Below, in pieces: positions 11,047-30,141 of a DNA stretch of 64,000 nucleotides. A program made the translations under genes and the position numbers. This DNA is from Bacteroidota bacterium (lineage in GTDB: Bacteria > Bacteroidota > Ignavibacteria > Ignavibacteriales > Ignavibacteriaceae): NCBI GenBank assembly GCA_021815405.1, contig JAKAGV010000008.1, positions 1-64,000 of the forward strand. The letters run 5' to 3'. The notes under the pieces were generated by a model. That model did no database searches. It was given only the letters and a program-made list of their open reading frames with translations, and had not been told where the DNA came from. Position 1 is the first letter of the stretch. Every line of letters begins with the position of its first letter.

Positions 11047-11152
11047 AAAAGTACTTTAAATAATTATTATGATTTTAATAGAATGATGAAATAATGTATT
11101 AAATTTATTTCCATCATTTTAAAATTCTATTTTATCTTTAGCTTTATAAAAA

Positions 11153-12058: not shown

Positions 12059-12113
12059 TAATGAACCCCCATAAAATGGTTATTAAAATAATTTAAGTTG
12101 ATTAATTTCATTT

Positions 12114-14374: not shown

Positions 14375-14380
14375 CGAAAA

Positions 14381-15244
14381 TTATTTCTCTTTCTCGATAA
14401 ACTTTTTTTGGATTGCTACGACTGATAATATCAAAAGAGCAAAGAATAACCCAAGTGTTGCTGAATAACCCATGTGGTAGTAGAAAAATCCTTGCTTATA
14501 AATGTAAAGCACAGCAGACAATGTACTGTTTAACGGACCTCCGCCGGTCATAATGTACGGTTCAATAAATAAAGAGAAACCGCCAATTGTTGAGAGAACA
14601 ACTACCATAAAGATCGTCGGATTTATCATAGGCAAAGTTATATTCTTAAACTTCTGCCAGTGGTTTGCGCCTTCAAGGTCCGCAGCTTCATAATAATGTT
14701 TTGGAACCGTTTGAAGCCCGACGAGAAACAAAATTATATAGAGTCCGACATTTTTCCATGTAGCCATTATAGCAATTGAAGGCATTGCCCAAGACGGATC
14801 CACAAGCCAGCCAATTCTTCCTAAGCCTAAAAAGATCAATACTCGATTCAGCAAACCGGTCTCAAATCCATAAAGCTGCTGCCAGAGAATGGTAACAACA
14901 ACACCGGAGACAATTACCGGAAGAAAAAATGCCGCTCTAAAAAAACCGCGGAACTTAATCTTTTGATTTAATATTTCGGCTAAGAAAAGCGCAACTATTA
15001 TTTGCAGCGGAATATGTATAACCAGGAAAATTAATGTGTTGGTAATTGATTTAAAGAAAAATACATCTTTAAAAAGATGGCGGTAATTTGTAAGTCCGAT
15101 AAATTTCATCGGAGAAATTATGTTCCACTTATTAAAAGTTAGAATAACCGAGAAGACTACTGGATATGCCACAAACAGCAAGAAGTACAGAATGTACGGA
15201 GACACTAAAAGATACGGAATATACTTTTTTGTTTTCATTCTCAC
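14381..15244 (-). CDS. Sugar ABC transporter permease (MalF/UgpA type)
   Basis: A 287-aa inner-membrane permease of the CUT1 sugar family with six predicted helices. The ATPase-contact loop reads EAADLEGANHWQKFKNITLPMINPT. The GTG at 15244 overlaps the stop of the binding-protein gene by four bases (GTGA); an ATG two codons later (15238) is an alternative start. It forms the translocation pore with the MalG-like subunit downstream. Tight coupling with the binding protein upstream fits stoichiometric expression of one importer. Confidence 0.9.
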   Translation of the reverse strand: MRMKTKKYIPYLLVSPYILYFLLFVAYPVVFSVILTFNKWNIISPMKFIGLTNYRHLFKDVFFFKSITNTLIFLVIHIPLQIIVALFLAEILNQKIKFRGFFRAAFFLPVIVSGVVVTILWQQLYGFETGLLNRVLIFLGLGRIGWLVDPSWAMPSIAIMATWKNVGLYIILFLVGLQTVPKHYYEAADLEGANHWQKFKNITLPMINPTIFMVVVLSTIGGFSLFIEPYIMTGGGPLNSTLSAVLYIYKQGFFYYHMGYSATLGLFFALLILSVVAIQKKFIEKEK

Positions 15245-16539
15245 TTCATGTAAAGTAGATTGACTTGCTTCGCAGCCTCATGAATAGCCTCTGCAGGTGA
15301 CTTCTTTCCGTATATTACACTCGCCTCATACTCCTGAGAAATTATATCGAACACCTCCGTCATATTCGGATATTGATCAATACCACGAACATATTTCGAC
15401 TGCTTTGCAAACTCAATCATCTTTGGCTTTTTCTTAAAATACTCTGCAAACATTGGATCCGTTTCCAGATTTTTTCTTCTCGGAAGCTGATCAGTATATT
15501 CGAGCAGCTTCAAGTCATTCTGTTTCTCAATCATAAAACGGATAAACTGCCAAGCAAGTTCGGGATTCGGACAAGTCTTAAATATTACTATATTCTTAGG
15601 GTCGCAGTAAGTATAAATTGGACCTTTGTGATCATCTGGAACAGGGACATGAGTAAAATTGAATTTGAATCCCGCCGGCTTAAATTTATTAGCATGAGCA
15701 ATTTCCCAGGGACCGGTAAATCTTGTTGCGATTGTACCGGAAAGGAAAACATCCTCTCTTGCAGAAAGTCTTTCCTTCGCAAAATAATTATGAGCATAAA
15801 GATTCCGGAGAAAAGAAAAAACCTCAACTGCGTATTTGTTATCAAATGCAGCCTTGTTATCTTTTACAAGCGGCGCTCCGTTTGAGGCGGCAAGGTATAA
15901 TGGATAAAAATCAAAAAACCTTTGCCACCATGTTACCAGCACTTCTGAATATCCGAACCATTTTGTAACATAACCATGTGGACCAATATTTTCATCTTTA
16001 AACTTTTCAGATGCTGAGTCAAACTCACTATAGTCTGACGGCGGTGCATCTAATCCAAGCTGCTTAATTATATTTTCATTGTACATCAGCATGATAGGAT
16101 TTATCTTCCACGGTATCTGATAAATATGCCCATCCTCGCTTGTTACTTCTTTAACAACCGAACTGTCGCATCTTGAATAAATAAAATCCTTGAAACCTTT
16201 TAAAGTGTCAAGAGCAACTAGAACTCCGGCTTTAGCATAATCTTCCACATCACCCTGCCACATGTTGGAATAAATGTCAGGTGTTGTTTTCCCGACAACA
16301 GCAGCTAAAATAATTTCTTCACTTGACTGTCCTTCCGGTACCGGTTGAAAAGATATTTTTTGACCTGGATGGTTCTGATTCCATTTATCTACTATATATT
16401 TTGCAAAAGATATTTCCTGAGTATTATTGCTCGACCAGTAAATCAAATGGTTTGGGTCCCTATCTCTCCTTGTTGAGCAAGAGAATTGTACAATGGCTAA
16501 TAATAAAAGGAAAAAGTATTTCGGTAAAAATCTTTTCAT
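15241..16539 (-). CDS. Sugar-binding lipoprotein of ABC importer (solute-binding family 1)
   Basis: A 432-aa extracytoplasmic binding protein. The signal peptide ends in a lipobox with Cys21 (VQFSC), so it is anchored to a membrane facing the periplasm. Family-1 hallmarks include the early phrase LIYWSSNN, the hinge region TPDIYSNMWQGDVEDYAKAG and the C-terminal PELAWQFIRFM. Aromatic residues such as the WWQRFF patch probably stack on sugar rings. It starts 131 bases downstream of the parvulin-like gene, the largest gap inside this part of the locus, so a secondary promoter could lie there. The ligand is inferred to be a mannoside from context only. Confidence 0.9.
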   Translation of the reverse strand: MKRFLPKYFFLLLLAIVQFSCSTRRDRDPNHLIYWSSNNTQEISFAKYIVDKWNQNHPGQKISFQPVPEGQSSEEIILAAVVGKTTPDIYSNMWQGDVEDYAKAGVLVALDTLKGFKDFIYSRCDSSVVKEVTSEDGHIYQIPWKINPIMLMYNENIIKQLGLDAPPSDYSEFDSASEKFKDENIGPHGYVTKWFGYSEVLVTWWQRFFDFYPLYLAASNGAPLVKDNKAAFDNKYAVEVFSFLRNLYAHNYFAKERLSAREDVFLSGTIATRFTGPWEIAHANKFKPAGFKFNFTHVPVPDDHKGPIYTYCDPKNIVIFKTCPNPELAWQFIRFMIEKQNDLKLLEYTDQLPRRKNLETDPMFAEYFKKKPKMIEFAKQSKYVRGIDQYPNMTEVFDIISQEYEASVIYGKKSPAEAIHEAAKQVNLLYMK

Positions 16540-16670: not shown

Positions 16671-18227
16671 TCACTCCCAATTCTGCCAGGCATAATCTAT
16701 TGAAGGGAATACCGGATGCGGAAAAGTTCCTCCCTTCCTTACCATATAAACATCGATTGCTCTTGGATCGTTTCTATCCTGGACTTGAATTTCTTTCAGA
16801 ACATTTTCATTTATGTGAATCTTATATTCCTTTTTTAATTGCTGCAATGTTCTGAATATCTTCGTTATCATTTCCTGGTTTTTATCTTCGATATTTTTTG
16901 CTTTAACGGAAGGCGGCAATTCAATGTTTAATCCAACAGATTTTCCGATTTGATCTCTAACAACAGCATAAACAATTTTATCCTGCCACCAGTTTACCTG
17001 CTGTTTAACAATATCAAGATTTTGATAACCTCTCTTGTAGGCTCTCTGTACAAGCAAATGATCTCTTACCATTTGCCAGATCATTTGTTCAAGCGAAGCA
17101 GAAAAAGGATCGAACCCGGTTTCGTTAAACTTTAAATACTCATCTCGCATTTTATACCAATTTATAAAATCGCTTAAAGAAATATCACCACCGGTTAATG
17201 TAACGAGTGTAATATTTTTAAAGTCAGAATTGCCGAGAGAATCATAATGTGCAATTTCGCTGTGCATTCTCTCATCTAGTTTCCAGGCTTTAAATTTATT
17301 TTCCGGTAATACATAGTTCCCCATATAAGAGCGAAGAATATCAAAAGCTCTTGCTTGAATTACAGGATTATGTTCAAGCATCATTGATCTAACATATTTA
17401 TCAGAGAGAGTATCGGCAATATTCATAGTTAGAGCCTGGCGAGCATCATATTTTTCTTTTTCGAATTGTGTCTGAGTTGTAATCATATTTTTCCAGACAT
17501 CGACAAGTTTAATCATATACCAGCCGTCAGGTCCTTCAATTGGTTCTGTAATAGAACCGGCTTTCATATTATCGATATCTTTGAACATTGGAAGGTTGCG
17601 CATTCTAAGCTTAAATTTAGTTTCTTTCAAAGAACGCTGATCAGCAAAAACAGAATCTTTTAATTGCATTTTGAATAATGAATCGAAAGGAACGCCTTTA
17701 CCTAATTCATCAACATAAAAATACATGCTGTCTTTAGTTGGCGTATAAATCCATTTTAACTGATATGTGATTTTACTTTCTTCTATTGCCCTGTTGAGCA
17801 TGATTGTCGGAATTTTTACTTTCTTAAGAATATCGTCTTTGTACATTTCTTTCGAAGCTAAATCGCCTTTTATAGCACCAAGAAGATCCTTTACTCGTGA
17901 GGAATCAGCATAGCCTTTTTTATAACCATCCAACGCTAAAAGCTTCTCATCAATCATGTATTTTAGATACTTTTTTCTGGAGTCTTTATCTCTTTTTACA
18001 AATGCAGGTCCGAATTCATAGCCGCATAAAAACTCTCTTACCGTTATATTTTTATTTCCGATTCTTGCCAGAACGGTATTTCCAAGCGGAGTATTGTATG
18101 CCGTATCGTAATTGATTTTTTCATTTTTAATTTGTTTACCTCCAGCATAACTCTTGTAACCTGCAAGTAAAGCAATTATGAAAAAGCACACTAATAAGTG
18201 TCCTAGTTTATCAAGCCGTTTCATCAT
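16671..18227 (-). CDS. Parvulin/SurA-like secreted protein (PpiC family)
   Basis: A 518-aa exported protein with an N-terminal signal (helix ~9-24). It has the SurA/PpiC N-domain phrase LARIGNKNITVREF (~53-66) and a long helical chaperone-like region (YLKYMIDEKLLALDGYKKGY). A parvulin-type segment, in which GWYMIKLVD matches the end of a PPIase domain, lies at ~225-240, and a C-terminal helical region follows. The catalytic parvulin residues are not clearly conserved, so chaperone activity is more likely than isomerase. It sits 14 bases after the PorV-like barrel gene and shares a transcript with it, so it may help fold or target that barrel or the 1,103-aa partner. A general SurA homologue is the alternative. 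Confidence 0.68.
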   Translation of the reverse strand: MMKRLDKLGHLLVCFFIIALLAGYKSYAGGKQIKNEKINYDTAYNTPLGNTVLARIGNKNITVREFLCGYEFGPAFVKRDKDSRKKYLKYMIDEKLLALDGYKKGYADSSRVKDLLGAIKGDLASKEMYKDDILKKVKIPTIMLNRAIEESKITYQLKWIYTPTKDSMYFYVDELGKGVPFDSLFKMQLKDSVFADQRSLKETKFKLRMRNLPMFKDIDNMKAGSITEPIEGPDGWYMIKLVDVWKNMITTQTQFEKEKYDARQALTMNIADTLSDKYVRSMMLEHNPVIQARAFDILRSYMGNYVLPENKFKAWKLDERMHSEIAHYDSLGNSDFKNITLVTLTGGDISLSDFINWYKMRDEYLKFNETGFDPFSASLEQMIWQMVRDHLLVQRAYKRGYQNLDIVKQQVNWWQDKIVYAVVRDQIGKSVGLNIELPPSVKAKNIEDKNQEMITKIFRTLQQLKKEYKIHINENVLKEIQVQDRNDPRAIDVYMVRKGGTFPHPVFPSIDYAWQNWE

Positions 18228-18241
18228 CTAAAAAATATTAA

Positions 18242-19327
18242 TCAAAATTCAATACCGACGGAAAAATAATTGACTCCATCAAGTACACCAAAGTTTCGAT
18301 AAGCGTAATCAAACCTAACTACATTCGAACTAAAAAGCATTTTAGAATTTACTCCAATACCCAAAGATAATCCGCCTTCACCTGTATAAAGAGGCTGTTT
18401 AAAGAAACTTCTGTCAGCAGTACCAGTGTTTGGATCAACAAAATAAAGAGATTGAAAACCTGCACGCAAGAATAAAAATTCCTTATATGCGAATTCGGTT
18501 CCGACATTGAAAGTTTCGTAATTGTCATTAGGATGTAAAGCATCGAGTGCGACAGTCCAACGGTAATCCTGCGTCTTAATTGCATTAGTTGAAACACCTA
18601 TTCTGAACAGCAGCGGAAGTCCCCATGAATCAAGATCAATGCTGTATGGTATTTGGTCATTTGATCCGTATACCGAAGGATCAACCTGAGCAAAAGTTCG
18701 CGTATCAATTCCAGATAGTTTCATCGGTGTACCGAAGTTAGAAATGGAAGCGCCAATCACCATTCCACCGAACAAGTCTGTCCTAAATAAAGTTCCAATA
18801 TCGAAAGCAAACGCACTACTCGACATATGCCAGATTGTTTCCTGAATATATTTACCTGTGAATCCTATTGAGAATCGATCAGTCAAGTTTCTTGCATAAG
18901 ATACTCCAATTGCAATATCTCCCGCACTAAAATATTCTCCGGTTCCTTCAGGTTGTTGAACTGTTCTAACTTTTTCATCAGGCATCGAAAGCGAGGTAAA
19001 ACTGAAGCCGATATTTCCAAACTCACCGAGTGGAAGTACAAGTCCAGCCCAATCAAGGTTTGTTGCCGCAATCCAGTTTGCATGAACAACTACTGCATCG
19101 TTATTAACAAGCTGCGCAATACCTGCTGGGTTCCAGTAAAGCGATGTTGCATCGGTTGCCCGGCTGACAAAAGCAGCACCCATTCCGTTGGCTTCAGCAC
19201 CAATACCAATTTCCAAGAATGTTGCTGCAGTTGTTCCCGTTTTTGAAACATTTATACTTTGCGCAAATGATGAAGTTAAAAATGTAAATGTTAATAAAAT
19301 GATAATAAGTAAAAATTTGATATTCAT
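18242..19327 (-). CDS. PorV/PorQ-family outer-membrane beta-barrel
   Basis: A 361-aa protein with a signal peptide (helix ~4-20, then SFAQS). The motif FLEIGIGAEANGMGAAF, with DATSLYWNPAGIAQL about 20 residues later, is the hallmark of the PorV/PorQ (UPF0164, FadL-like) family. Alternating aromatic strands continue to the end (FFSVGIEF, final Phe as in Omp85-inserted barrels). Housekeeping PorV carries T9SS cargo to the surface; this copy, placed between a TonB receptor operon and a sugar importer, could be a dedicated shuttle or a channel for the locus. AAGAGGC precedes the ATG. The 36-base gap from the 1,103-aa gene supports cotranscription. Confidence 0.85.
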   Translation of the reverse strand: MNIKFLLIIILLTFTFLTSSFAQSINVSKTGTTAATFLEIGIGAEANGMGAAFVSRATDATSLYWNPAGIAQLVNNDAVVVHANWIAATNLDWAGLVLPLGEFGNIGFSFTSLSMPDEKVRTVQQPEGTGEYFSAGDIAIGVSYARNLTDRFSIGFTGKYIQETIWHMSSSAFAFDIGTLFRTDLFGGMVIGASISNFGTPMKLSGIDTRTFAQVDPSVYGSNDQIPYSIDLDSWGLPLLFRIGVSTNAIKTQDYRWTVALDALHPNDNYETFNVGTEFAYKEFLFLRAGFQSLYFVDPNTGTADRSFFKQPLYTGEGGLSLGIGVNSKMLFSSNVVRFDYAYRNFGVLDGVNYFSVGIEF

Positions 19328-19363
19328 AAAAGCCTCTTATCCAAATTTATCTGCATAATGAGC

Positions 19364-22300
19364 TCACTTAATTACAGCAAATCTGCCGATTTTCTTTCCG
19401 TACTGAGACTCAACCACATAGACATAAACACCAAAAGAAATATCCATTCCATCTTTGGAAACCAGATTCCATGGCTCCTGTCCATTTGCCAAACTACTCT
19501 GATGGTGTAGTGTCTGCACAAGATTTCCACTTATAGTGTAAATTTTAATGGTGCATACGTTAGGAAGATGAATAAAATATACCAGCCTTTCTCCTCTTCC
19601 TACTTGTTGAGTTGCAGGTTCCCAGGAAGCTGCACCTGCATATGGATTAGGTACAACAGCGATATCGCTCATGTCCTGCATTAGTTTTGATTTATCAAAG
19701 TACGATGATTTAGTTGTGAACTGATAGTATTCTCCCGTTCTAAACGGTTTTGTAGTTACAATCTTATAAACATCTCCTGGCTGCGGAGCTATTTGTTTAT
19801 CGGCAGCAATCGATGTATCCTGTATTAAAGAAATTGACCAGCCAACATGACGGTTCGAGTTGCTTGTAACTTTGCCGCCCAATGAATCTCCGGCAATTAT
19901 AAAGATAGCATCACCGGCATCAAATTTCTGATCGTTATTATTATCAAAGAACATGAATTGCATATGAGGTACATTATCAGTAACATCTTTAATAATAACA
20001 TTAGATGGTATAGGTTGAGAGAAAACTCCAGTTGGATATGATGTATCTCCTTGTCCTGGCTGAGTAAAAGTAATCTCAAAATCAGCCGGGAAGTTTACAC
20101 GCTGTCCTGAATAACTATTAGCATATCTGGAATCAAAACCAAGCTGAACTATGTAGTTACTGTTTCCTTTTTCCCATCCTGAATTAGCTTGATCGATTGT
20201 AACACTGGTATCGTTGGTTAATGTCAGACTCATTCCGTCGATTACTGGCGTGGTAACCTGGTTGCCGTTGAATTGAGTAAAGTTAATTAACGTATCATTA
20301 TCAGAGTAATCTATTATTGCATAGAAAGGATTAGGATCGGTATGGAATTGTGAATTATCCTTATACACAACTCGATAAGTATTATAATTTTTAATCGAAT
20401 CAGGATCAAGAATCTGGATGGATTCAGTACCAGTTCCGGGACCGCTGTTAATTACCGAAGAAATTTCAGGAGGCACATATCCTGCAGCCGGTGCAGTTGG
20501 AATTACAACTGCAGTATTAACGTCAGTCTTATAATGTCCTGCTGCATCTTCTTTAATAATACTTGTAGTTTCAGACGGCGGAATTCCTTCCTGCACTCCA
20601 TTTATATTTGTAGTTAAGAATCCTTTATCATAAGCGCACACTGCATAAAAATAAGTTTGTCCGTTTTCAACAGTAGTATCTACAAAAGAATGCTGAAGAC
20701 CTGAATCATCACCGAGATAAAACATAGCGCCGTTTACAGAGATCGGAAACAATCCAGTTACACCATCTTTCAAATCGAATTGAGCGATAGGCTGTCTGAA
20801 AGTTGCCTTACCGTATGCATCAGTAATGATCTGATCTTCCAGGAAGTTAGGATCTGTAGCACGATATATTCTATAGCCTTCAAAATTTACTCTCTGATAA
20901 AATGCATCGAAGGTATGCTCGGCTCTATCGTCCCAATACAAAGTTACTTTATGATCTCCTGCAATAGCTTTAACAATCGGTTTATCAGGGGGCTTAGCAA
21001 AATTGTAAGTAGCATTATATATAGATTGAACAGTGTTTTTTCTTCTAAATAAATCATCGACGTTAATGCCAAATATTAATGCCATTGAGAAACGCTGCGT
21101 GCTGCCTGTTTCTTCTAATTGACCTTGCTGCTGAGAATAAGTATTTCTCCCATCCATATGAAACATATAACTTGAGAAAAAGTTTGCAAGGTTAACTCCA
21201 ACAAGCGTCTGTCCGTGTGGAGATGGCAGAGCTGATAACATGCCCCAGTTTCTTTCATCATTATTTAAATCGTAAGTATGAACAGCAGCTATTAAAAATC
21301 CTGTTAAGCCAAGCTGATCTGATTCATCTTTATCCAAAATTCCGAAATGGGGCTCGCCTTGATCCGGTCTTAAATTTCCTTCAGTTCCGTTTGCATCTGG
21401 TCCTGTATAATTAGGATCATACGGTCCAATACCATCGCTGCCGACATCATCGTATTGTGGATTCCAGTTTCCGTTTTCATCTCCAGGCCACCACAATTTA
21501 TTTTGTATAGCCGGCACATCATCAAGAGATTGGTAATTATAAAATCTCTTAAAAGCTGCAGTGTCATGTGTAGCAATAAATGCAGCCTTAACACCGCCAG
21601 GTGCAACCGGCGGAACACCGTATAATTTTTCCAACTTTGCAGCATACGGTGATGAAGCCTCATAAATGGGACCGTGCAGTTGGGGATATCTCGGCCACGT
21701 TGCAGCAGGATCAGATCTGCTTTCGTCAATCATTCCATCGTGGTCATTATCTATACCATCATCAGATATTCCAGGACTTTCCAGAAATGCATAACCAGCC
21801 ATGCCAACCGGGCTCCAATGTCCAGGGCTTCCAAATGCTACAGTAGACCAAGCATAAGAAATATTTAAAAGCTGATCATAATCTCCCGCATTGTTTGAGG
21901 AGTTATCGTGCCCGCCTATTCCCCAATCAACATATTGAGCGAACAAAGTTTTGGGATAATCTGTCGTTCCCATATTTGTAATTTCATAATACCAAAAGAT
22001 TACATCCTCAGCCAGAACTTGAGACCATTGGAAACCTCTTCCATGAACTTGCATTCCCAATCCGCCTCGTGTGGTGTCATCAGCATCAGGATAAAAACCA
22101 TATTTGTTAATGTAATCGCGGTCTTCATTATCATCGAAAACAAAATATGATTCAAGGTCGGCATTCCTTACTCCCTTTCCAAAGAATCCGTCCCATAGCC
22201 CGTTCCAATCGCTTGGTCTATCGGGCCAGGTTGAAGGCCAGGTAGTTGGATCGTCGCTTCGTGCAACGCTGGATTGATTTGGATTGGCATAACCAGGTAA

Positions 22301-22675
22301 TGGCCACCAGCCATAAGTTACTCCAGTTGCAGGATTGTACCTTGTGTACTCATAATAATTAGTTTCCAATGGATGAAAGGTATTTCCGTTTTTATGCGCT
22401 TCAGCTTGAACTATGATTGCAACACCGTCAACATAAGTATGGTTCGTACCTTTAGGCCACACTCCGCTAATAGTCGGCTGATTCTGCCAATCCGCTATTT
22501 CACCAAAATTATAAAAGCAAGTCTCTACAAGATTGCCATCCATAATCCCCATTTTAGTATAGTTATGATTACCTTTATTCTTATCGACAATCACTTGCGC
22601 AAAAATATTTGCGGAGTATAAAAATAGTAATCCAATTAAAAGAAAATAAAAATTTGACAACCATTTATTTTTCAC
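19364..22675 (-). CDS. 1,103-aa secreted protein with Fn3-like region and divergent T9SS C-domain
   Basis: A signal peptide (~6-26, ending NIFAQ) is followed by a large aromatic, Pro/Gly-rich N-domain (~30-540). This contains acidic loops such as DDGIDNDHDGMIDES, an EF-hand/thrombospondin-type calcium pattern. Fn3-like segments (~560-690) follow; KVTLYWDDRAEHTF and YFYAVCAYDKG are typical. The last ~85 residues match the T9SS sorting fold (NPYAGA ... VCTIKIYTISGNLV ... GVYVYVVE ... FAVIK) but lack the usual NPFNP. No enzyme motif was seen. It lies between a TonB receptor and a PorV-like gene, the position a SusD lipoprotein occupies in classic polysaccharide loci, so a surface binding partner of the receptor is proposed. 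Function unproven. Confidence 0.65.
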   Translation of the reverse strand: MKNKWLSNFYFLLIGLLFLYSANIFAQVIVDKNKGNHNYTKMGIMDGNLVETCFYNFGEIADWQNQPTISGVWPKGTNHTYVDGVAIIVQAEAHKNGNTFHPLETNYYEYTRYNPATGVTYGWWPLPGYANPNQSSVARSDDPTTWPSTWPDRPSDWNGLWDGFFGKGVRNADLESYFVFDDNEDRDYINKYGFYPDADDTTRGGLGMQVHGRGFQWSQVLAEDVIFWYYEITNMGTTDYPKTLFAQYVDWGIGGHDNSSNNAGDYDQLLNISYAWSTVAFGSPGHWSPVGMAGYAFLESPGISDDGIDNDHDGMIDESRSDPAATWPRYPQLHGPIYEASSPYAAKLEKLYGVPPVAPGGVKAAFIATHDTAAFKRFYNYQSLDDVPAIQNKLWWPGDENGNWNPQYDDVGSDGIGPYDPNYTGPDANGTEGNLRPDQGEPHFGILDKDESDQLGLTGFLIAAVHTYDLNNDERNWGMLSALPSPHGQTLVGVNLANFFSSYMFHMDGRNTYSQQQGQLEETGSTQRFSMALIFGINVDDLFRRKNTVQSIYNATYNFAKPPDKPIVKAIAGDHKVTLYWDDRAEHTFDAFYQRVNFEGYRIYRATDPNFLEDQIITDAYGKATFRQPIAQFDLKDGVTGLFPISVNGAMFYLGDDSGLQHSFVDTTVENGQTYFYAVCAYDKGFLTTNINGVQEGIPPSETTSIIKEDAAGHYKTDVNTAVVIPTAPAAGYVPPEISSVINSGPGTGTESIQILDPDSIKNYNTYRVVYKDNSQFHTDPNPFYAIIDYSDNDTLINFTQFNGNQVTTPVIDGMSLTLTNDTSVTIDQANSGWEKGNSNYIVQLGFDSRYANSYSGQRVNFPADFEITFTQPGQGDTSYPTGVFSQPIPSNVIIKDVTDNVPHMQFMFFDNNNDQKFDAGDAIFIIAGDSLGGKVTSNSNRHVGWSISLIQDTSIAADKQIAPQPGDVYKIVTTKPFRTGEYYQFTTKSSYFDKSKLMQDMSDIAVVPNPYAGAASWEPATQQVGRGERLVYFIHLPNVCTIKIYTISGNLVQTLHHQSSLANGQEPWNLVSKDGMDISFGVYVYVVESQYGKKIGRFAVIK

Positions 22676-22699
22676 GGCAGCCTACCTCAAAATTCTAAA

Positions 22700-25390
22700 T
22701 TAAAAATCCATTGACATTCCAAGCAATATTTGTCTTGGAGCTGAATAAAAATCAGGTCTTGTAAAAAATTCTTGAATAGTATTGATACCTCTCGGCGGAG
22801 CCTGCGGTCTGGTCTCATCAAGCGTGTAACCAGCTCTGCCGGTATCCGTAAATACATTAAGCTCATTAGGAGTATCAAATAGGTTATAAATTTTTGCAAA
22901 GATAGAAAAATTCATTCCCATCAGTTTTAAATATTTAGTAATATAAAGATCGACATTAAAGAAGGTCGGTTTATTAGCACTGTTCTCCAAACCTGTTCTT
23001 TGATTCTGATAGGAAGGAGTATAAGGTAAACCTGAACCTAATTGACCTACAGCGCTTGCAATAAAGTCATCCGGGATTCCAGCAGTAAGTGTAAAATTTA
23101 AAGAATGCCTTCTGTCCCAATCAAGCGGTACTAATTGTTTGTTAGCTTCAATAGGTGGTGATGCCTGCGCAAGATTATATACTTCATTAGGATCTGATGC
23201 ATCACCTTTTGCAACCTGGAAAGTATAATCTATACTCGCACCAATGCCATGACTAAATCTTTTATCGAATGAAATTGTAAATCCGCTGACATCGCCATAG
23301 TCTGTATTAATATACTCTGCAAACTTCTTAAAATTATTCTTTACGAAAAGCTCAACACCTAAAAGATTACGAATATCTTTATAATATGCAGTAACATTTA
23401 ATCCAATATCATCTGTTAATGCCTGCTGCAAGCCTATTTCGTACATTACCGTTTCCTGTGGTTTCAAATCTGCATTACCAATCATATTGCCAATCAGATT
23501 CGGATAATTTCCAGTGAGCGGAATCCTAAAGTTCGGATTATCATACAAGTATTGAAATGGTGGAACCTGGAAGAAATGTCCGTATGAAATATGAATTGCT
23601 CCATTACTGCCCATTGGATAGGAAATGCCAAGCCTTGGGCTCCACTGGTATTTTGCACTGGCTCTATGAAAATATTGACTTGGGAAAGGAGGCAGCAATG
23701 TATCAAGTACTGCGATATTATTAGGATCATTAAGTACGTTAGCATCCGGCTGGAAGTAATCAAATCTTAATCCGACGTTTACAATTAAATAATCTAATTC
23801 AATTTTATCTTGTATGTAAGCCGCTAACTGGTATGGATGATTATCATAAATATTATAATCAAAAGCCCCAACCTGTGGAAGTTCCGGTTTATAACCAGTT
23901 GATGCATCGACTAATACTTGAAAGTCCTGATAGTTTAGTGTATTTAAATCAGCTTCAACTCCTGTCTTCAGTTCATGAATATCATTTAACTGATCAGTTA
24001 AATCAGCTTTCAGCGTATATGTTTTAGTATTGTGCATAAAATGCCAATTCTGAGTTCCGCCGACATAAAGTGCATTACCGCTAACCTGACTAAATCTATC
24101 TTGAGTTACATACCGCGGATCATACGGGTTAGCAAATGCATATTGTTTATAATCTGAAGTATAATTCGAAGCTAGTAAATCTAAAAAGGCTGAGCGGCTA
24201 AATACATGCGTGTAACTTATGCTAGCAAGATAACTATATTCATAGTTCTTATAATTTCCATCCGGATCATAAATGAACATATGATCATAGTTTTCATAAT
24301 CATGCTTTTGATATAGACCTTCTAGGACGATTCCTTTTCCCTGCCCAACTTTAAAAACTAATTTACCCTGAAGAGTTAATTGTCTGGAAAAATTCATCGG
24401 CACATCTTTTCCATCTCCTGTAGCACCGATATACCATTGGCTCGGATTGTTTGAAGAAAAGTTAGAAGAATCATCCGGATTAAAAATTCTTTTTCCATAA
24501 AGATAACCATCATCGCTAAGATATCTTGCCGAAGTAAAAAATTTAACAAACTTATTTGTTGCTGGAATCGGTCCGCTTAAGCTACCTTGAATATTATAAG
24601 TTCTTGCAGGATTGAATCCACCCATATATTGAAAGAGATTTGTTCTTGATGTAGCATAATCTCCTGAATATACCGAGAAACTGCCACTGTAATGGTCCTC
24701 CGGTATTTTGGTTATTTGGTTAACAACTCCCGACATTGCCTGACCATATTCAGCATTAAATGTTCCGGTTATTACTTGAAGTTCCTGGATACTGTTTGTT
24801 GAGGCTTCCATAGTCGCATCACCGGAGTAAACATCATTAACGGAAACGCCATCGATTAGATATTTTACTTCGCCTAATCTGCCGCCTCTAAAGTGACCAT
24901 CAACTACGCCAGCTTGTAGATTAACTACAGACTGCACATCCTCCACCGGAAGCATTGAAATGCTGCTGCCTGATATGTTCGATTGAGTTGAAGTTAAATC
25001 TTTTTGAACTAACGGTTTGGATGCTGTAACAACTACAGTTTGAACCTGCACAGCTTCTTCACTTAATTCAAAATTAATCTTAGTAGTTTGGTCTACAGAT
25101 ACACGGACATCTTTTACTTCAACAGATCCATATCCTACTGTAGATGCTTTTAAAGTATAAACTCCGGGAGGGATATTGATAATAAAATAATTTCCGTTCA
25201 CATCTGTTGCAGCGCCCATTGACGTACCAACAATAAGTACATTAACGCCAATCATTGGCTCCTTAGTTTTTGCGTCAATTACTCTGCCGGCTATTTTTCC
25301 AGTTGTTCCGGCAAATAGATCGCAAGATACTAAAACCGCAATTACTAATAATTTAAAAAGATTATTTAAAACTTTGTAAAAATTGTTCAT
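22700..25390 (-). CDS. TonB-dependent receptor with carboxypeptidase-regulatory-like N-domain
   Basis: An 896-aa outer-membrane receptor. A signal peptide (~1-27, ending LFAG) is followed by a CarboxypepD_reg-like sandwich at ~30-115 (GKIAGRVIDAKTKEPMIGVN is its classic start). The plug is at ~125-235 (VTASKPLVQKDLTS, DGVSVNDVYSGDA, NAEYGQAMSGVVNQ), and the barrel runs to the terminal MSMDF. The N-domain resembles that of SusC-type transporters, but no SusD gene is next to it. It would import oligosaccharides with TonB energy. It heads its own transcription segment, because a strong hairpin separates it from the gene upstream. The ATG is preceded by AAGGG. Confidence 0.9.
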   Translation of the reverse strand: MNNFYKVLNNLFKLLVIAVLVSCDLFAGTTGKIAGRVIDAKTKEPMIGVNVLIVGTSMGAATDVNGNYFIINIPPGVYTLKASTVGYGSVEVKDVRVSVDQTTKINFELSEEAVQVQTVVVTASKPLVQKDLTSTQSNISGSSISMLPVEDVQSVVNLQAGVVDGHFRGGRLGEVKYLIDGVSVNDVYSGDATMEASTNSIQELQVITGTFNAEYGQAMSGVVNQITKIPEDHYSGSFSVYSGDYATSRTNLFQYMGGFNPARTYNIQGSLSGPIPATNKFVKFFTSARYLSDDGYLYGKRIFNPDDSSNFSSNNPSQWYIGATGDGKDVPMNFSRQLTLQGKLVFKVGQGKGIVLEGLYQKHDYENYDHMFIYDPDGNYKNYEYSYLASISYTHVFSRSAFLDLLASNYTSDYKQYAFANPYDPRYVTQDRFSQVSGNALYVGGTQNWHFMHNTKTYTLKADLTDQLNDIHELKTGVEADLNTLNYQDFQVLVDASTGYKPELPQVGAFDYNIYDNHPYQLAAYIQDKIELDYLIVNVGLRFDYFQPDANVLNDPNNIAVLDTLLPPFPSQYFHRASAKYQWSPRLGISYPMGSNGAIHISYGHFFQVPPFQYLYDNPNFRIPLTGNYPNLIGNMIGNADLKPQETVMYEIGLQQALTDDIGLNVTAYYKDIRNLLGVELFVKNNFKKFAEYINTDYGDVSGFTISFDKRFSHGIGASIDYTFQVAKGDASDPNEVYNLAQASPPIEANKQLVPLDWDRRHSLNFTLTAGIPDDFIASAVGQLGSGLPYTPSYQNQRTGLENSANKPTFFNVDLYITKYLKLMGMNFSIFAKIYNLFDTPNELNVFTDTGRAGYTLDETRPQAPPRGINTIQEFFTRPDFYSAPRQILLGMSMDF

Positions 25391-25451
25391 GTTTTTTTAC
25401 CCTTGCCGGTTAATTTGTTTTAAGCAAGAGACTCGTCTGCTCAATTAGAAA

Positions 25452-25490
25452 AGTGAGACTCATCCCTATCAAATCAGGATGAGTCTCACT
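25452..25490 (-). terminator. Strong hairpin, terminator-like
   Basis: Bases 25452-25465 (AGTGAGACTCATCC) are the exact reverse complement of 25477-25490, giving a perfect 14-bp stem with an 11-base loop. On the minus strand it is followed by TTTTCTAATT. It starts 8 bases past the stop of the tandem-repeat T9SS gene and 60 bases before the TonB receptor. It could end the regulator/dehydrogenase/surface protein transcript, or partly attenuate read-through into the receptor genes. The short T-run makes full termination uncertain. Confidence 0.65.
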
Positions 25491-25497
25491 AAAGTAG

Positions 25498-28077
25498 TTA
25501 TTTCAAGAATAGCATTTTCTTTACTTGAACATTATCGCCTGCTTTTACTCTATAAATATAGGTACCGCTTGCGACTTGCTGTCCATCATTATTCAATCCA
25601 TTCCATACAATGTTATGCACTCCGCTTTGCTGTTCGCTATTTACAAGCGTTCTAACTTCGCGACCGAGTATATCATAGATTACTATTCTAACCTGTGAAG
25701 GATTCGGCAATGCATAGCTGATTGTTGTTGTTGGGTTAAACGGATTAGGATAATTCTGGAAAACCTGGAACTTTGCCGGGACTAGTTTACCAAGGTCAGT
25801 AACAGCAGTTGTTCCAGATGTTTTTTGAACCGTAAGATCGTCAAAGTAGACTGTTCCGGTAAACAACGAATATATGTGAAGTCTAAATTCTGCACCAGAG
25901 TAATTCTTATCAGTTGGGACCTGGAAATCAACAAAGAATTGTGTCCAATCGAAATTAGTAACTGATGGTAATGTAAATACAGAGTCCGGACCTGTTCCGT
26001 CAAAACCAGAGTTATTCCCAAGTGTAGTAAAGAATTGAGGTGTAATTCCAACGCCCCATTGACCTGGATGTGCTGCGGCAGAGTCAGGTAAAAGGTTGCT
26101 GGCTTTAATCCAGACACCTACTTTTATAAAGTCACCGGGATGAATTGTAGAATCAATTAAACTAAAAGGCATACGATGTGTACTGACAAATCCATCTCTT
26201 GAGTCTCTGCCAAACGGCATATTAAATTCTAAAGAGTAATTTCCACTATGAGCAGTTGAATTTGTTACTAAGGTATTTTCAAAACCGGCATTAAGCTGAC
26301 CATCGTTTCCACCGTTTGGAGGCAGCCAGTAATACCATCCGGTTGGAACGCCTAACTGAGTATTCCAATCCTGCCCAGCCCATGCGCCGCGTCTTCCGGT
26401 AAAGATAAAATTATCAGCCCAAACGGTACCGGTAGCATTTCTACCGCCAACAAAACTGATTATCATCTTATAAGCATCTTTTGGTAATGAGACTTGTCCA
26501 ACTGCGGTAGTATCAGCCATCCATCCTGAGCTTGTTGCCTGCGATTGATCTATTGGAAGTTGAACTGATCCAATTAAATTTCCGGTTGTATCATAAAAAG
26601 TATAAGCAATATACCATCTCTGATCATCTGAAGTTGGATTGGTATTTACTCCTTGAGTCTTTACATAGGCACCGAAAAGAAGATCAACATTAGCCGGAAC
26701 ATTAGGTGACCAAATATCGCACATGTTCTCAGATACCCAAGCAGCGGAATCACTAGTTACCTCTTTTTGAATTTTGAGTGAGTGTCCCATCGACATATAT
26801 TGGTCGGTTGCCCAGCTCATTATGCTTCCGCCGGGGTTATTTCCCATGTACCAGAAAGAGGGTTCATCGCCTTCAAAGCCTGCAATTTGTGCAAGAGTTG
26901 GATTCGAAATTTTCGTAACACTTACGTCATCAAAATAAATTGTACCGACAAAAGTTGAATAAACGTGAAGCCGGATTTCCATTCCTGATGTAGCCGGATT
27001 TGTTGGAACTTGAACATCAACAGAATATTTTGTCCAATTAAATGAAGTTGCATTCGGTAAAGTAAATTGATAGTCATTTCCTGTACCGTCCCAGCCGTCA
27101 TTATTTCCAAGTTTGGTGAAGAATTGAGGAGTAATACCAACAGCCCAGGTAGTTGGATGAGCTGCCGCAGAATCTGGTTGCAAATTGCTTCCTTTAACCC
27201 AAACACTAAGTTGAATTATGTCTCCTGGTTTTATTGTAGGATCAATTGCACTAAAAGGCAGACGATGCGTGCTGATAAAACCATCTCTCGAGTCCCTGCC
27301 TGCGGGCATATTAAATTCCAGAGAGTAATTTCCTGAATGTGAAGTTGTATTTGTTACTAAGGTGTTTTCAAAACCGGCATTAAGCTGACCATCGTTTCCT
27401 CCGTTTGGCGGCATCCAGTAATACCAACCGGTTGGTACTCCTAACTGAGTATCCCAGTCTTGTCCTGCCCAGGCACCGTTTCTTCCGATAAATATAAAAT
27501 TATCAGCCCAAACTGTACCTGTTGCGTTCTTACCGCCTACAAAGCTAATAATCATTTTCCATGCATCTTTGGGAAGTGTAACTTGCCCAACAGCAGTTGT
27601 ATCTGCCATCCAACCGGTGCTTGTTGCTTGGGACTGATCAATAGGAAGTTTAACTGTTCCAATTAAAGCGCCGGCACTATCATAGAAGGTATAAGCAATA
27701 TACCATCTCTGATCATCTGAAGTAGGATTTGTATTTACGCCGGAAGTTTTAATCCAAGCACCAAAGAGAAGATCAACATTTGCAGGAATTGTTGGTGACC
27801 ATAGGTCGCACATGTTATCCGAGATCCATGCAGCAGAATCTGATGTTGCACTCTTTTGAATTTCGATAGAATGTCCCATCGAAATATATTGGTCGGTAGC
27901 CCAGGTTAAAGTGCTGCCTGTAGGTTGGTTGCCTATATTCCAGTATGAAGGTAATGTCCCTTCAAAACCGGCAATTTGATTTAATGTGTAATTTGTTTGA
28001 CCCAAAAGTAACATAGGACTAAACAAAATACCCATCAGTATCATTAGGAACCAATAAGATTGTCTATTTTTTTTCAT
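25498..28077 (-). CDS. T9SS cargo with duplicated carbohydrate-binding-like units
   Basis: An 859-aa surface protein. A signal peptide (~8-27, ending LLG) leads into two ~362-residue repeats at ~34-395 and ~396-757, which start LNQIAGFEG and LAQIAGFEG. Each repeat contains two beta-sandwich modules, ending in TGTVWADNFIF and GT(I/V)YFDD(V/L), the typical close of CBM4/CBM9-like galactose-binding folds. The end is a canonical type A T9SS domain (NYPNPFNPTT ... GREVRTLV ... GTYIYRV ... MLFLK). No catalytic motif is seen, so it probably captures glycan at the cell surface for the mannoside locus. It is cotranscribed with the dehydrogenase (13-base gap) and ends at a strong hairpin. Confidence 0.85.
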   Translation of the reverse strand: MKKNRQSYWFLMILMGILFSPMLLLGQTNYTLNQIAGFEGTLPSYWNIGNQPTGSTLTWATDQYISMGHSIEIQKSATSDSAAWISDNMCDLWSPTIPANVDLLFGAWIKTSGVNTNPTSDDQRWYIAYTFYDSAGALIGTVKLPIDQSQATSTGWMADTTAVGQVTLPKDAWKMIISFVGGKNATGTVWADNFIFIGRNGAWAGQDWDTQLGVPTGWYYWMPPNGGNDGQLNAGFENTLVTNTTSHSGNYSLEFNMPAGRDSRDGFISTHRLPFSAIDPTIKPGDIIQLSVWVKGSNLQPDSAAAHPTTWAVGITPQFFTKLGNNDGWDGTGNDYQFTLPNATSFNWTKYSVDVQVPTNPATSGMEIRLHVYSTFVGTIYFDDVSVTKISNPTLAQIAGFEGDEPSFWYMGNNPGGSIMSWATDQYMSMGHSLKIQKEVTSDSAAWVSENMCDIWSPNVPANVDLLFGAYVKTQGVNTNPTSDDQRWYIAYTFYDTTGNLIGSVQLPIDQSQATSSGWMADTTAVGQVSLPKDAYKMIISFVGGRNATGTVWADNFIFTGRRGAWAGQDWNTQLGVPTGWYYWLPPNGGNDGQLNAGFENTLVTNSTAHSGNYSLEFNMPFGRDSRDGFVSTHRMPFSLIDSTIHPGDFIKVGVWIKASNLLPDSAAAHPGQWGVGITPQFFTTLGNNSGFDGTGPDSVFTLPSVTNFDWTQFFVDFQVPTDKNYSGAEFRLHIYSLFTGTVYFDDLTVQKTSGTTAVTDLGKLVPAKFQVFQNYPNPFNPTTTISYALPNPSQVRIVIYDILGREVRTLVNSEQQSGVHNIVWNGLNNDGQQVASGTYIYRVKAGDNVQVKKMLFLK
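25800..27984 (-). repeat. Tandem duplication of ~1,086 bp within one gene
   Basis: Two direct copies lie head to tail inside the T9SS cargo gene, roughly 26,896-27,984 and 25,800-26,895. The period of about 1,086 bases (362 codons) was judged from matching landmarks such as AACCGGCATTAAGCTGACCA near 26,284 and 27,372. The copies differ mostly at third positions, pointing to an intragenic duplication that has since drifted while the protein was conserved. Confidence 0.8.
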
Positions 28078-28090
28078 ATAGTGCTCCTTT

Positions 28091-29104
28091 TTAATTTGGT
28101 GTTATTTGATATTTTATGACAGATGATTTACGTGGTTCAGATAAAATCTTTTTCAAATCTATAAGCGGCATAATTTCCGGTTGAAGTCTATCCGGTTTAA
28201 CTTTTCCGGTAACCAAGAGTTCTACCGCCCTTGAAAATGTAAATGGATTAAGTAACGATCCTTTAATTGAAAGTTCTTTAAGAAAAAAATCCTGGAGATT
28301 AATATTCAGCATATCCTTTTTTCCAGAAAGACCGAATAAAACAACTCTGCCTCCGCGCTTAGGGAGATTAACAGCTAAATTAGCTGCCGTACTGTTTCCA
28401 GCGCATTCAATAACTACATCCGGTCCGCCTTGAGTTAAATCCGAAATATTTCTTAGCATTTCTGATGAATTAGGATCGGACACAAAATCAGCGCCCAGGC
28501 TTGCGGCTAATTTTCTTTTTTCTTCAACCGGCTCAATCAATATTATTTTACCGGCGCCGCTTAAGTTTACAAGTTGAAGCATTAAAAGTCCGATTGTTCC
28601 TCCGCCGATAATTACAACACTTTCTCCAAGCTTAATCGAAGCATTGTCCATACCGCGAACACAACATGAGAGTGGTTCTGCGAAAGCTGCAGATTTAAAT
28701 GAAAATTCTGTTGGAATTAAATAAGCTTGAGAAACTGGCACAATTGAATATTCGGCAAAGCCTCCGTTTAGACTTACACCCAGAGCTTTAAGATTGGAAC
28801 AAAAATTTATTTTACCTTCTCGGCAGTACTGACATTCACCGCAATAAATATTGGGATCTACTGCTACGTGATCATCAATATTAAAGTTGTAAACACCTTC
28901 ACCTTTATCCACAACAATTCCTGTAAATTCATGTCCAGGAATTACTGGAGGCTTGGAATACGATTCACCGGCATAAATATGAAAGTCAGTACCGCATATT
29001 CCGCATGCTTCAACTTTAATCAGAATTTCTTTACTCTTCAATTTAGGAAGAGAATAATCTTTAATTTCGAGGCTGTAAGGCTTATCGAATATTGCTGCTC
29101 GCAT
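28091..29104 (-). CDS. Zinc-dependent alcohol/polyol dehydrogenase (MDR family)
   Basis: A 337-aa medium-chain dehydrogenase. The catalytic zinc site is CGICGTDFH with GHEFTG (~residues 35-70). A structural zinc site is formed by the four cysteines in CGECQYCREGKINFC (~92-106). The Rossmann fold has the glycine motif GGGTIGLL (~165-172), and IEPVEEKR at the end of the second strand suggests NAD rather than NADP. It resembles sorbitol/threonine dehydrogenases. It lies 20 bases after the LacI regulator in the same transcript, so it probably oxidises or reduces a sugar or polyol from this locus, but the substrate cannot be read from sequence. Confidence 0.88.
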   Translation of the reverse strand: MRAAIFDKPYSLEIKDYSLPKLKSKEILIKVEACGICGTDFHIYAGESYSKPPVIPGHEFTGIVVDKGEGVYNFNIDDHVAVDPNIYCGECQYCREGKINFCSNLKALGVSLNGGFAEYSIVPVSQAYLIPTEFSFKSAAFAEPLSCCVRGMDNASIKLGESVVIIGGGTIGLLMLQLVNLSGAGKIILIEPVEEKRKLAASLGADFVSDPNSSEMLRNISDLTQGGPDVVIECAGNSTAANLAVNLPKRGGRVVLFGLSGKKDMLNINLQDFFLKELSIKGSLLNPFTFSRAVELLVTGKVKPDRLQPEIMPLIDLKKILSEPRKSSVIKYQITPN

Positions 29105-29124
29105 TTTAATTTTCGAAAATAGAC

Positions 29125-30141
29125 TTAAATTTTTTGAGTAGACTGGCGTACTACTAATTCTACAGGCATCATAATTTTTTTAGGATAAAATTCATATTCT
29201 TTTAAGAGAGTAGAAATTAATTTCATAGCTTCCATTCCCATCTCCATAGTCGGTACTCTAACTGTACATAACGGTGGATCTACTGAACTCTCAGATACAA
29301 CATCATCAAAACCCATGACAGATACATCTTGCGGTACTCTTTTACCTTGATCTTTTAAATATTGAATAACTCCTAATGCCATGGCATCATTACATGCAAA
29401 TATTGCCGTGATATTTTTATTTACCGATAATAATTTTCTTGCTGCGTTATATCCGTTTGTTCTTGCCGGATAATTTTCAGACGTTTCGATTAAATCTGGA
29501 GATATCGGAAGATTTGCCGATTCAATTGCTTTCATATATCCAGTCAATCTATCACTAATACTTGGATGTCCTATATCTCCGCCAATGAATGCAATGTTTT
29601 TATGTCCAAGATCAATCAAATGATTAGTAGCTAACCTACCGCCCATTACATTATCAACTAATACAGTAGAATAATTTTTATTTGCTGGTATGAAATCAAT
29701 ATAAACTACCGGAAAGTTGTAATGACTTAATTTTTCCATCAATAATTGAGGTACTTTACCAGCTATTATTACACCATCAATGTTTCTGTCTAAAATAAAC
29801 CTGGGCAGTTGATCTCTTTCATTAAAATCAGAATTTATTGTATTAAGAAGTACATAGAAATCATTCTCTCTAGCTTCTATTTCAGTACCGATAAAAATAT
29901 GAGTGTAAAAAGGTTCTGTTCTTAAGAAGTGATCATTAGTGAGTATAAAACCAATATTGCCCGTGCGTCTTGAAACCAAACCTCTAGCTGAGCGCGAAGG
30001 ACGGTAATTCATCTGTTCTATAATTTCAAGGACTTTAACTTTAGTTTCCTTAGAAATTCGTCTATGGTTATGCATTACTAGCGAAACCGTAGCTATAGAA
30101 ACATTTGCTGCTTTTGCGACATCTTTTATTGTTATTGCCAT
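29125..30141 (-). CDS. LacI/GalR-family transcriptional regulator
   Basis: A 338-aa repressor. The N-terminal helix-turn-helix (~2-45) carries the family signature TIKDVAKAANVSIATVSLVM and the hinge NYRPSRSARGL. A periplasmic-binding-protein-like sugar sensor domain follows (NIGFILTNDH ... TAIFACNDAMALG ... DVSVMGFDDV). It is the first gene of the ~29-kb minus-strand mannoside locus, and its own promoter carries a palindrome of the LacI operator type. It therefore very likely represses itself and the adjoining genes until a mannoside-derived inducer binds. The ATG lies just 4 bases from the palindrome edge. Confidence 0.93.
   Translation of the reverse strand: MAITIKDVAKAANVSIATVSLVMHNHRRISKETKVKVLEIIEQMNYRPSRSARGLVSRRTGNIGFILTNDHFLRTEPFYTHIFIGTEIEARENDFYVLLNTINSDFNERDQLPRFILDRNIDGVIIAGKVPQLLMEKLSHYNFPVVYIDFIPANKNYSTVLVDNVMGGRLATNHLIDLGHKNIAFIGGDIGHPSISDRLTGYMKAIESANLPISPDLIETSENYPARTNGYNAARKLLSVNKNITAIFACNDAMALGVIQYLKDQGKRVPQDVSVMGFDDVVSESSVDPPLCTVRVPTMEMGMEAMKLISTLLKEYEFYPKKIMMPVELVVRQSTQKI

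Follow-up and report, generated by a model that had tools for sequence, protein, structure and literature searches.

We analysed a 64,000-nucleotide (nt) stretch of DNA (hereafter the window) from an Ignavibacteriaceae bacterium (assembly GCA_021815405.1, contig JAKAGV010000008.1), whose genome, called here the source genome, has 4.97 Mb and is 99.98% complete. The window contains three adjacent genes that code for a TonB-dependent receptor (TBDR), a secreted protein of 1,103 amino acids (aa) that we named MID for its middle position, and an outer-membrane barrel of the PorV family; the arrangement TBDR>MID>PorV is referred to as the triad. The triad is real and recurs widely among Ignavibacteria and allied bacteria of the Fibrobacteres-Chlorobi-Bacteroidetes (FCB) group as a conserved module, and its three genes are co-encoded and co-diverging. 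The reading that we favour, and hold to be slightly on the probable side, is that MID is a glycan-binding partner of the receptor exported by the type IX secretion system (T9SS), that the PorV-family protein is its private shuttle or anchor, and that the module takes up glycans much as the SusC/SusD pair (SusCD) does. The genes of the triad are:

22700..25390, minus strand: TonB-dependent receptor, 896 aa, with CarboxypepD_reg, plug and barrel (PF00593 and PF13715 matches)
19364..22675, minus strand: MID, 1,103 aa, secreted (AlphaFold2 model, VIA-align, C-domain class test)
18242..19327, minus strand: PorV/PorQ-family outer-membrane barrel, 361 aa (NF033709)

Recurrence of the triad

A search with a MID N-domain motif and tblastn (E <= 1e-3) gave 502 MID relatives in one genome collection, from which the best 80 loci were kept (80-set); 40 divergent loci (40-set) and 60 further loci (60-set) were added by hand-picking. 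The triad was scored by tblastn adjacency in loci with room on both sides, and lack of room excluded 7 of the 80-set and 1 of the 60-set. The order TBDR>MID>PorV was present in 169 of the 172 remaining loci, which share kinship and hence are not independent: 70/73 of the 80-set, 40/40 of the 40-set and 59/59 of the 60-set. No two of the 162 full triads had identical MID sequences. The three exceptions (L093, L097 and L113) corresponded to second MID copies, at about 9970-13230 in each, on the contigs holding L060, L071 and L075, and these copies had no adjoining receptor or PorV. The conserved synteny of the triad exceeds chance. Across the 172 loci only second copies of MID lacked an adjoining receptor, and triads were found beside different sugar operons (see below), a recurrence that an earlier analysis of the window sequence (the original prediction) had named as support for an uptake module. 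By record title the hosts belonged to Ignavibacteria, KSB1, Calditrichota, Marinimicrobia, Kryptonium, Balneolales, Rhodothermia and WOR-3, most of them being metagenome-assembled genomes.

The source genome encodes five full MIDs including the window copy, all five in triads: each of the four additional full-length paralogues is flanked by a receptor gene and a gene of the PorV family in the order and relative orientation seen in the window, and each of these triads has other neighbouring genes.

More remote proteins with a fibronectin type III (Fn3)-like part and a C-domain were also observed in the vicinity of a receptor gene and a gene of the PorV family, in L051, L052 and L053 of the source genome and in L247 (8758-12039), L248 (5351-7456) and L249 (6585-8897). 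These remote middle proteins, of about 700-1,300 aa, have little in common with MID beyond the Fn3/C-domain part, and in L053 the gene order differs, with other genes intervening between receptor, middle protein and PorV-family gene.

Co-divergence of the three genes

Distance matrices of 105 full triads were strongly correlated, with Mantel r values of 0.949 for TBDR-MID, 0.935 for TBDR-PorV and 0.898 for MID-PorV, as compared with a maximum of 0.159 in 500 shuffles per pair. The trees had in common 78 of 102 splits for TBDR-MID and 62 of 102 for both TBDR-PorV and MID-PorV, and the five paralogues of the source genome were nested identically in all three trees. These sequence comparisons support the view that the triad is inherited as a unit.

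The triad is not a SusC/SusD pair

The receptor matched PF00593 (1.5e-29) and PF13715 (6.5e-22), and the Plug model at 20.5 bits, below its 23.9 cut-off. The original prediction had called it SusC-type, a label that must be withdrawn: it is a TonB barrel with a CarboxypepD_reg domain that scored only 66.2 bits with the SusC/RagA model TIGR04056, whose cut-off is 368.25. Across the source genome no receptor exceeded that cut-off and no protein matched SusD (PF14322, PF07980). MID itself had no SusD-family domain match and no match to any Pfam family at E <= 0.1; the SusD fold was not among the VIA-align and Foldseek matches of its model, a listing that cannot establish absence. A crude lipobox pattern within residues 6-50 was present in 5 of 162 MIDs, versus a background of 6 of 162 TBDRs and 5 of 162 PorVs. 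Of the 61 genomes of the class that were searched, 17 contained PF07980 and the other 44 gave no match at E <= 0.001.

One related genome, G188 (presumed to be Melioribacter roseus), carries a genuine SusC/SusD pair in a separate locus with genes of glycoside hydrolase (GH) family 13, located at about 876-889 kb. Its SusC reached 731.9 bits, above the 368.25 cut-off, and the single G188 triad receptor scored stayed below it with 87.3 bits; its SusD, at 124 bits, served as positive control for the SusD search. Away from that locus, G188 contains a single full triad (L166) as well as three of the remote kind. Since the SusC/SusD and triad loci are separate in G188, the two systems can coexist and be told apart. 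A SusD that travels with the receptor, which by the original prediction would have counted against it, as would MID and PorV homologues lying mostly apart from receptors, was found neither in the source genome, which is without SusD, nor in G188, where SusD has its own locus. A passage of PMC3534657 gives Mros0761-0759 of M. roseus as SusC, SusD and SusE. The idea that these published genes were a misnamed triad was rejected on the scores of the true SusD and SusC at the 876-889 kb locus, which has the gene content described for them.

As in SusC/SusD systems, a TonB receptor is followed by a large secreted partner in glycan-utilisation operons, and a role of capture and hand-over is proposed for the partner. 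The differences are that MID is without a SusD domain match or a lipobox pattern above background, that it is a predicted beta-supersandwich with a T9SS-type C-domain and a PorV-family gene next to it, and that the receptor score falls far short of the SusC cut-off. The triad is not a member of SusCD; we infer that it works in a similar way. The carbohydrate utilization loci with TonB-dependent receptors (CUT loci) of Xanthomonas reportedly take up carbohydrates independently of SusD, and in this respect, glycan uptake through TonB receptors without SusD, they are said to be alike; the CUT receptors are not known to have a MID or PorV partner.

Predicted fold of MID

The MID sequence comprises an N-terminal signal (by inspection), a predicted beta-supersandwich (~31-560), immunoglobulin (Ig)/Fn3-like domains and a C-domain (~1005-1103). 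An AlphaFold2 model made with 105 homologues reached a pLDDT of 89.5 and a pTM of 0.80; it superseded an earlier one from 12 sequences that was too weak (pLDDT 62.9). VIA-align, run on Foldseek candidates, placed the N-terminal half on beta-supersandwich folds with Z 13-20 over 213-273 residues and rmsd 2.7-4.2, figures that refer to the 50 matches shown, some of which extend past ~560. The matched proteins were GH15, GH94, GH116, GH149 and GH161 enzymes, a polysaccharide lyase of family 26 (PL26) and galactose mutarotase (GalM); we take their common fold to be the beta-supersandwich, which in the hydrolases presumably forms a non-catalytic N-domain. The Foldseek list was led by Fn3 chains with low TM-scores; the assignment of the N-domain rests on VIA-align. 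By this model the MID N-domain has the predicted fold of sugar-acting enzymes, the likeness to GH15, GH94, GH116 and GalM lying within Z 13-20. What sets MID apart from them is that its beta-supersandwich forms the N-terminal part of a T9SS-type protein, and that the catalytic barrel of the GH15, GH94 and GH116 enzymes is unmatched. Sugar binding by MID is putative, a common fold being no proof of function.

The DxDxDG loops, described in the original prediction as calcium-like, are present in MID as a sequence motif and may bind calcium, and the longer motif DxxDNDxDGxxDE occurred in 114 of 162 homologues. Several acids, for example E175, D311, D410, E441, D448 and E451, were invariant across 105 MIDs. 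The C-terminal half resembled Fn3/Ig chains in the model and its fold matches, with PorU and PorZ among the Foldseek matches; the Fn3 segments that had been proposed for MID are thus suggested by model and fold matches, and by no Pfam match at E <= 0.1.

A separate class of C-domain

MID had been said to end in a divergent T9SS C-domain, and the comparisons agree: the domain appears to be related to type A and to form a class apart. It scored 15.8 bits with TIGR04183, below the cut-off of 23. The proteins of 120 related loci (L054-L173) were scanned with two profiles, one of 105 MID C-domains and the other of the C-domains of 12 cargo proteins from the source genome. Among the C-terminal matches the MID profile was preferred by 116 MIDs versus 0 of 135 other proteins, and the canonical cargo profile was matched by only 2 of 118 MIDs; as about 100 of the tested MIDs are also in the MID profile, their preference is by construction, and the informative part of this sequence comparison is that no other cargo prefers the MID profile and that MIDs hardly match the canonical one. 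The two classes aligned to each other in hhalign with a probability of 94.4 and an E of 9.4e-08 over 50 columns. The MID C-domain was all-beta in the model, and its profile matched PorU only at E 0.13. The source genome had 132 canonical type A matches (TIGR04183, E <= 1e-5) with none of the five full MIDs among them, and the type B model TIGR04131 had no match in MID. As judged by profiles, the MID C-domain is a distinct T9SS-like class.

The T9SS translocon SprA was found in the source genome (1007 bits). Of 296 sampled genomes of the phylum, 115 had a MID match at E <= 1e-10 and every one of these had SprA, and none of 68 genomes lacking SprA had a MID match; some of the 115 MID matches were weak and partial, and because of the kinship of the genomes the Fisher value is not a true probability.

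The adjoining PorV-family barrel

The third gene of the triad scored 188.6 bits with NF033709 (cut-off 90), in keeping with the PorV/PorQ family membership already proposed for it. Its scores were below the equivalog cut-offs for PorV (NF033710, 70.4 vs 250 bits), PorQ (NF033711, 78.2 vs 220) and PorV2 (NF052325, 86.8 vs 325); its sole PDB sequence match was PorV 6h3i (E 6e-06), and PorP/SprF models had no match in it. Six further receptor-linked PorVs that were scanned also passed the NF033709 cut-off, with 174.8-233.8 bits. Of the 14 PorV-family genes over this cut-off in the source genome, 10 were receptor-linked, eight by a receptor read in the window or in a fetched stretch, and two (C25:59196 and C10:51046) by a receptor just outside the stretch. 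The top-scoring PorV-family gene of the genome is G000:C8:57026-58060 (313 bits), which may be the housekeeping PorV.

In type B cargo of F. johnsoniae, a private PorP/SprF shuttle gene is often found directly downstream, as described in a section of PMC12618676, where it is also stated that all type A C-domains are recognised by one PorV shuttle. The triad resembles the type B arrangement in that the MID gene is directly followed by an outer-membrane barrel gene (169/172 loci), the known private shuttle described in that section being SprF (PMC12618676). It differs in that the barrel belongs to the PorV family and would be a shuttle by analogy, the C-domain is type-A-related, and a TonB receptor is part of the set. 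With PorV and type A cargo it has in common a PorV-family barrel and, remotely, the C-domain (the hhalign match above), the difference being that each triad MID has a PorV-family gene of its own and a C-domain of a separate class. Since the C-domain is type-A-like but separate and a PorV paralogue lies directly next to it, a private shuttle or anchor is the simplest reading. The original prediction had left a choice between a carrier and a second channel; by gene-order analogy with SprF, a private shuttle or anchor of MID seems more likely than a second channel.

Proposed mechanism and alternatives

Secretion, anchoring and docking of MID are proposed to proceed as follows. MID would enter the periplasm by Sec and be exported through SprA. 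Its C-domain would then be taken over by the adjoining PorV-family protein, which would keep it off the common PorV/PorU route and hold it on the cell surface, with its sugar-recognising domain at the mouth of the receptor. The beta-supersandwich would capture an oligosaccharide and hand it over to the neighbouring TonB receptor, as SusD does for SusC, after which the ATP-binding cassette (ABC) importer encoded downstream would move the sugar across the inner membrane and the GH130 and GH2 enzymes would split it. The parvulin-like protein encoded next to the triad may help to fold the outer-membrane parts, and a hairpin before the receptor gene would yield more of the upstream T9SS cargo than of the receptor.

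Several points weigh against this reading. The physical interaction of MID with the receptor is putative, and so is its replacement of SusD, put forward in the original prediction; congruent trees are also expected from shared descent without contact. The MID N-domain fold, as modelled, also occurs in catalytic proteins. In three loci a second MID stands by itself, with no receptor or PorV next to it. Elsewhere one PorV serves the type A cargo in common, according to the same section of PMC12618676, so that a private PorV is an extrapolation. The analysis of covariation adds two more. When mutual information with average product correction (MI-APC) was computed for the 162 triads, covariation of the MID N-domain was enriched with the receptor plug and barrel; pairs between the beta-supersandwich and the plug were 3.0-4.6 times as frequent as expected, and those with the periplasmic domain of the receptor 0.2-0.3 times, a similar pattern being obtained with 105 triads. 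Shuffling of partners within clades left the enrichment unchanged (49 real vs shuffled means of 51.5 and 50.8), and Gaussian direct coupling analysis, which did more poorly on a within-protein sanity check, gave a contrary block order. Since the signal survives within-clade shuffling, it is of subfamily level and not of contact level, and covariation was rejected as evidence of docking. A weak residual was left in the mean of the top 300 MI-APC scores, which was 0.2601 vs at most 0.2568 in 16 shuffles.

A covariation without contact signal beyond the clade level would also be seen if MID were a stand-alone surface glycan-binding protein (SGBP-like) that concentrates the substrate and forms no lid on the receptor, and the second MIDs without adjoining receptor in L093, L097 and L113 point the same way. 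We regard this alternative as unlikely, the near-strict 1:1:1 adjacency in a fixed order and the congruent trees being tighter than expected of a loose accessory.

MID could instead be a surface enzyme (a hydrolase, lyase or epimerase) whose product is taken up by the receptor. Its fold is also that of a GH174 fucanase (Z 14.8), the PL26 lyase (Z 13.8) and GalM (Z 13.4), and the acids listed above are invariant in 105 sequences. The best matches, however, are to N-terminal, non-catalytic domains of cyclic glucan synthases and of enzymes from families GH15, GH94 and GH116, the catalytic barrels being unmatched. The same acids are also invariant across subfamilies that lie beside different sugar genes, a pattern more in keeping with a structural or metal-binding role than with a single catalytic site. 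An enzymatic MID is rated as distinctly improbable.

A third possibility concerns the PorV-family protein, which instead of a shuttle would be a second, FadL-like outer-membrane channel serving the sugar or one of its breakdown products. Homology of PorV to FadL is stated in a passage of PMC12578637, FadL proteins are called transporters in part of PMC12611786, and the gene is below the PorV, PorQ and PorV2 equivalog cut-offs. The same part of PMC12611786 gives hydrophobic substrates for canonical FadL channels, and the gene directly follows the cargo gene, as SprF does; we give the channel very little credence. The co-divergence of PorV with MID and receptor alike does not separate the shuttle from the channel.

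Large secreted Fn3-like surface proteins are often adhesins, and the triad might be an export or assembly unit in which receptor and PorV display MID as an adhesin or matrix protein, uptake not being its purpose; for L052, a stretch around two distant triads, no sugar gene was found by BLAST against the window proteins, Pfam not having been run there, and with sugar importers and glycosidases adjoining many triads this is the least credible explanation of all.

Glycan uptake in Bacteroidota is taught through SusC/SusD, and SusD is patchy in this class, with 44 of 61 genomes lacking PF07980. As a tentative proposal, to which we give somewhat less than an even chance, the triad would be a third type of outer-membrane glycan importer, in which a TonB receptor works, in place of a lipoprotein, with a T9SS-exported beta-supersandwich protein that is delivered and held by its own PorV paralogue via a private C-terminal signal, replacing SusCD in SusD-less FCB lineages. 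If so, nutrient uptake would be linked directly to type IX secretion and the type IX system could install the surface partner of a transporter; the module could explain oligosaccharide uptake in SusD-less bacteria and give names to many unannotated genes. A description of the triad was not found in the literature at the level of titles and abstract openings, which left most subscription papers and bioRxiv uncovered, and a prior description is possible.

Neighbouring genes and sugar context

The other features of the locus are:

25498..28077, minus strand: T9SS cargo, 859 aa, type A C-domain and two 363-aa repeats (FlgD_ig, Por_Secre_tail, TIGR04183)
25452..25490, minus strand: intercistronic hairpin between cargo and receptor (15-bp stem, 9-nt loop, -25.5 kcal/mol)
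16671..18227, minus strand: SurA/parvulin-like protein, 518 aa (PF13145 below cut-off; homologues)
13565..16539, minus strand: sugar ABC importer, a solute-binding protein and two permeases (SBP_bac_8 1e-33; BPD_transp_1 in both permeases)
11153..13553, minus strand: two GH130-family genes, 301 and 479 aa (PF04041 1.2e-57 at 11153-12058 and 2e-33 at 12114-13553)
28091..30141, minus strand: zinc-type alcohol dehydrogenase and LacI-family regulator, head of the operon (Pfam)

The order of transcription is 859-aa cargo, TBDR (896 aa), MID, PorV/PorQ barrel (361 aa) and parvulin-like protein (518 aa), followed on the 3' side by the sugar ABC importer and both GH130 genes; a gene for GH2 lies farther along. 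All five predicted open reading frames were confirmed at their coordinates on the minus strand, with short gaps of 107 bp (cargo>TBDR), 24 bp (TBDR>MID), 36 bp (MID>PorV) and 14 bp (PorV>parvulin-like). Pfam matches also bore out the sugar context of the locus (ABC importer, GH130 and GH2).

A SurA/parvulin-like chaperone had been proposed for the 518-aa protein. The window copy scored 17.9 bits with PF13145, below the cut-off of 27, and appears at best to contain a degenerate peptidyl-prolyl isomerase domain. Some homologues do pass: among five close ones L062 (33.0) and L105 (50.7) were above the cut-off and the others below (22.5, 23.3 and 24.2), and three distant ones were well above it.

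The cargo upstream of the receptor had been described as a T9SS protein with four modules like carbohydrate-binding modules (CBM). The first part of this description holds, with matches to FlgD_ig (4.8e-13), Por_Secre_tail (4.3e-08) and TIGR04183 (43.2 vs 23 bits). As to the second, the protein consists of two tandem 363-aa repeats that are identical in 277/363 positions (76%); no CBM model matched at E <= 0.1, only C-domain families were above cut-off, and no PDB sequence match fell outside the C-domain, which leaves the CBM label unproven. In two paralogous loci of the source genome the corresponding position is taken by cargo of 849 and 854 aa, which resembles the 859-aa cargo in the C-domain only.

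The 80-set consists mostly of the window's own operon type. In 51 of its loci at least 9 kb of sequence follows MID; an ABC importer gene was found in 49 of them, the parvulin-like gene in 40 and a homologue of either GH130 gene in 32. In 18 loci at least 9 kb precedes MID, and here a LacI homologue was found in 15 and the 859-aa cargo in 14. Other contexts were seen in paralogous triads of the source genome and G188: L047 lies beside GH3 and a sodium-solute symporter, L050 beside GH13 with CBM48-like domains, L049 beside a rhamnosidase-type glycosidase, and L166 (G188) beside GH35 and GH53 with a clear parvulin. The 40 divergent loci and the four paralogues of the source genome make 44 cases, of which 40 could be judged for the gene just upstream of the receptor; in 28 of these it carried a canonical T9SS C-domain.

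The 120 related loci offered 70 usable gaps of 40-600 bp before the receptor gene, and 45 of these contained a stem of at least 10 bp, as compared with 2.8 of 70 expected from mononucleotide shuffles. Gaps elsewhere in these loci had such a stem in 16 of 163 cases; 24 of the 45 hairpins were followed by at least 5 T in 8 bases. From its sequence the hairpin is predicted to be an element that may set the cargo:receptor ratio, either as a partial terminator or through RNA stability. Consensus scans for promoters and terminators gave no more hits than in shuffles, and missed the hairpin at 25452-25490 because of its 9-nt loop.

Downstream of MID, a 444-aa protein (9712-11046, minus strand of the window) had no Pfam match at E <= 0.01 and matched by sequence the PDB entry 7tem, a 'putative exported protein' (E 7.3e-105). 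Of the 51 related loci in which at least 9 kb follows MID, 38 contain a homologue of it.

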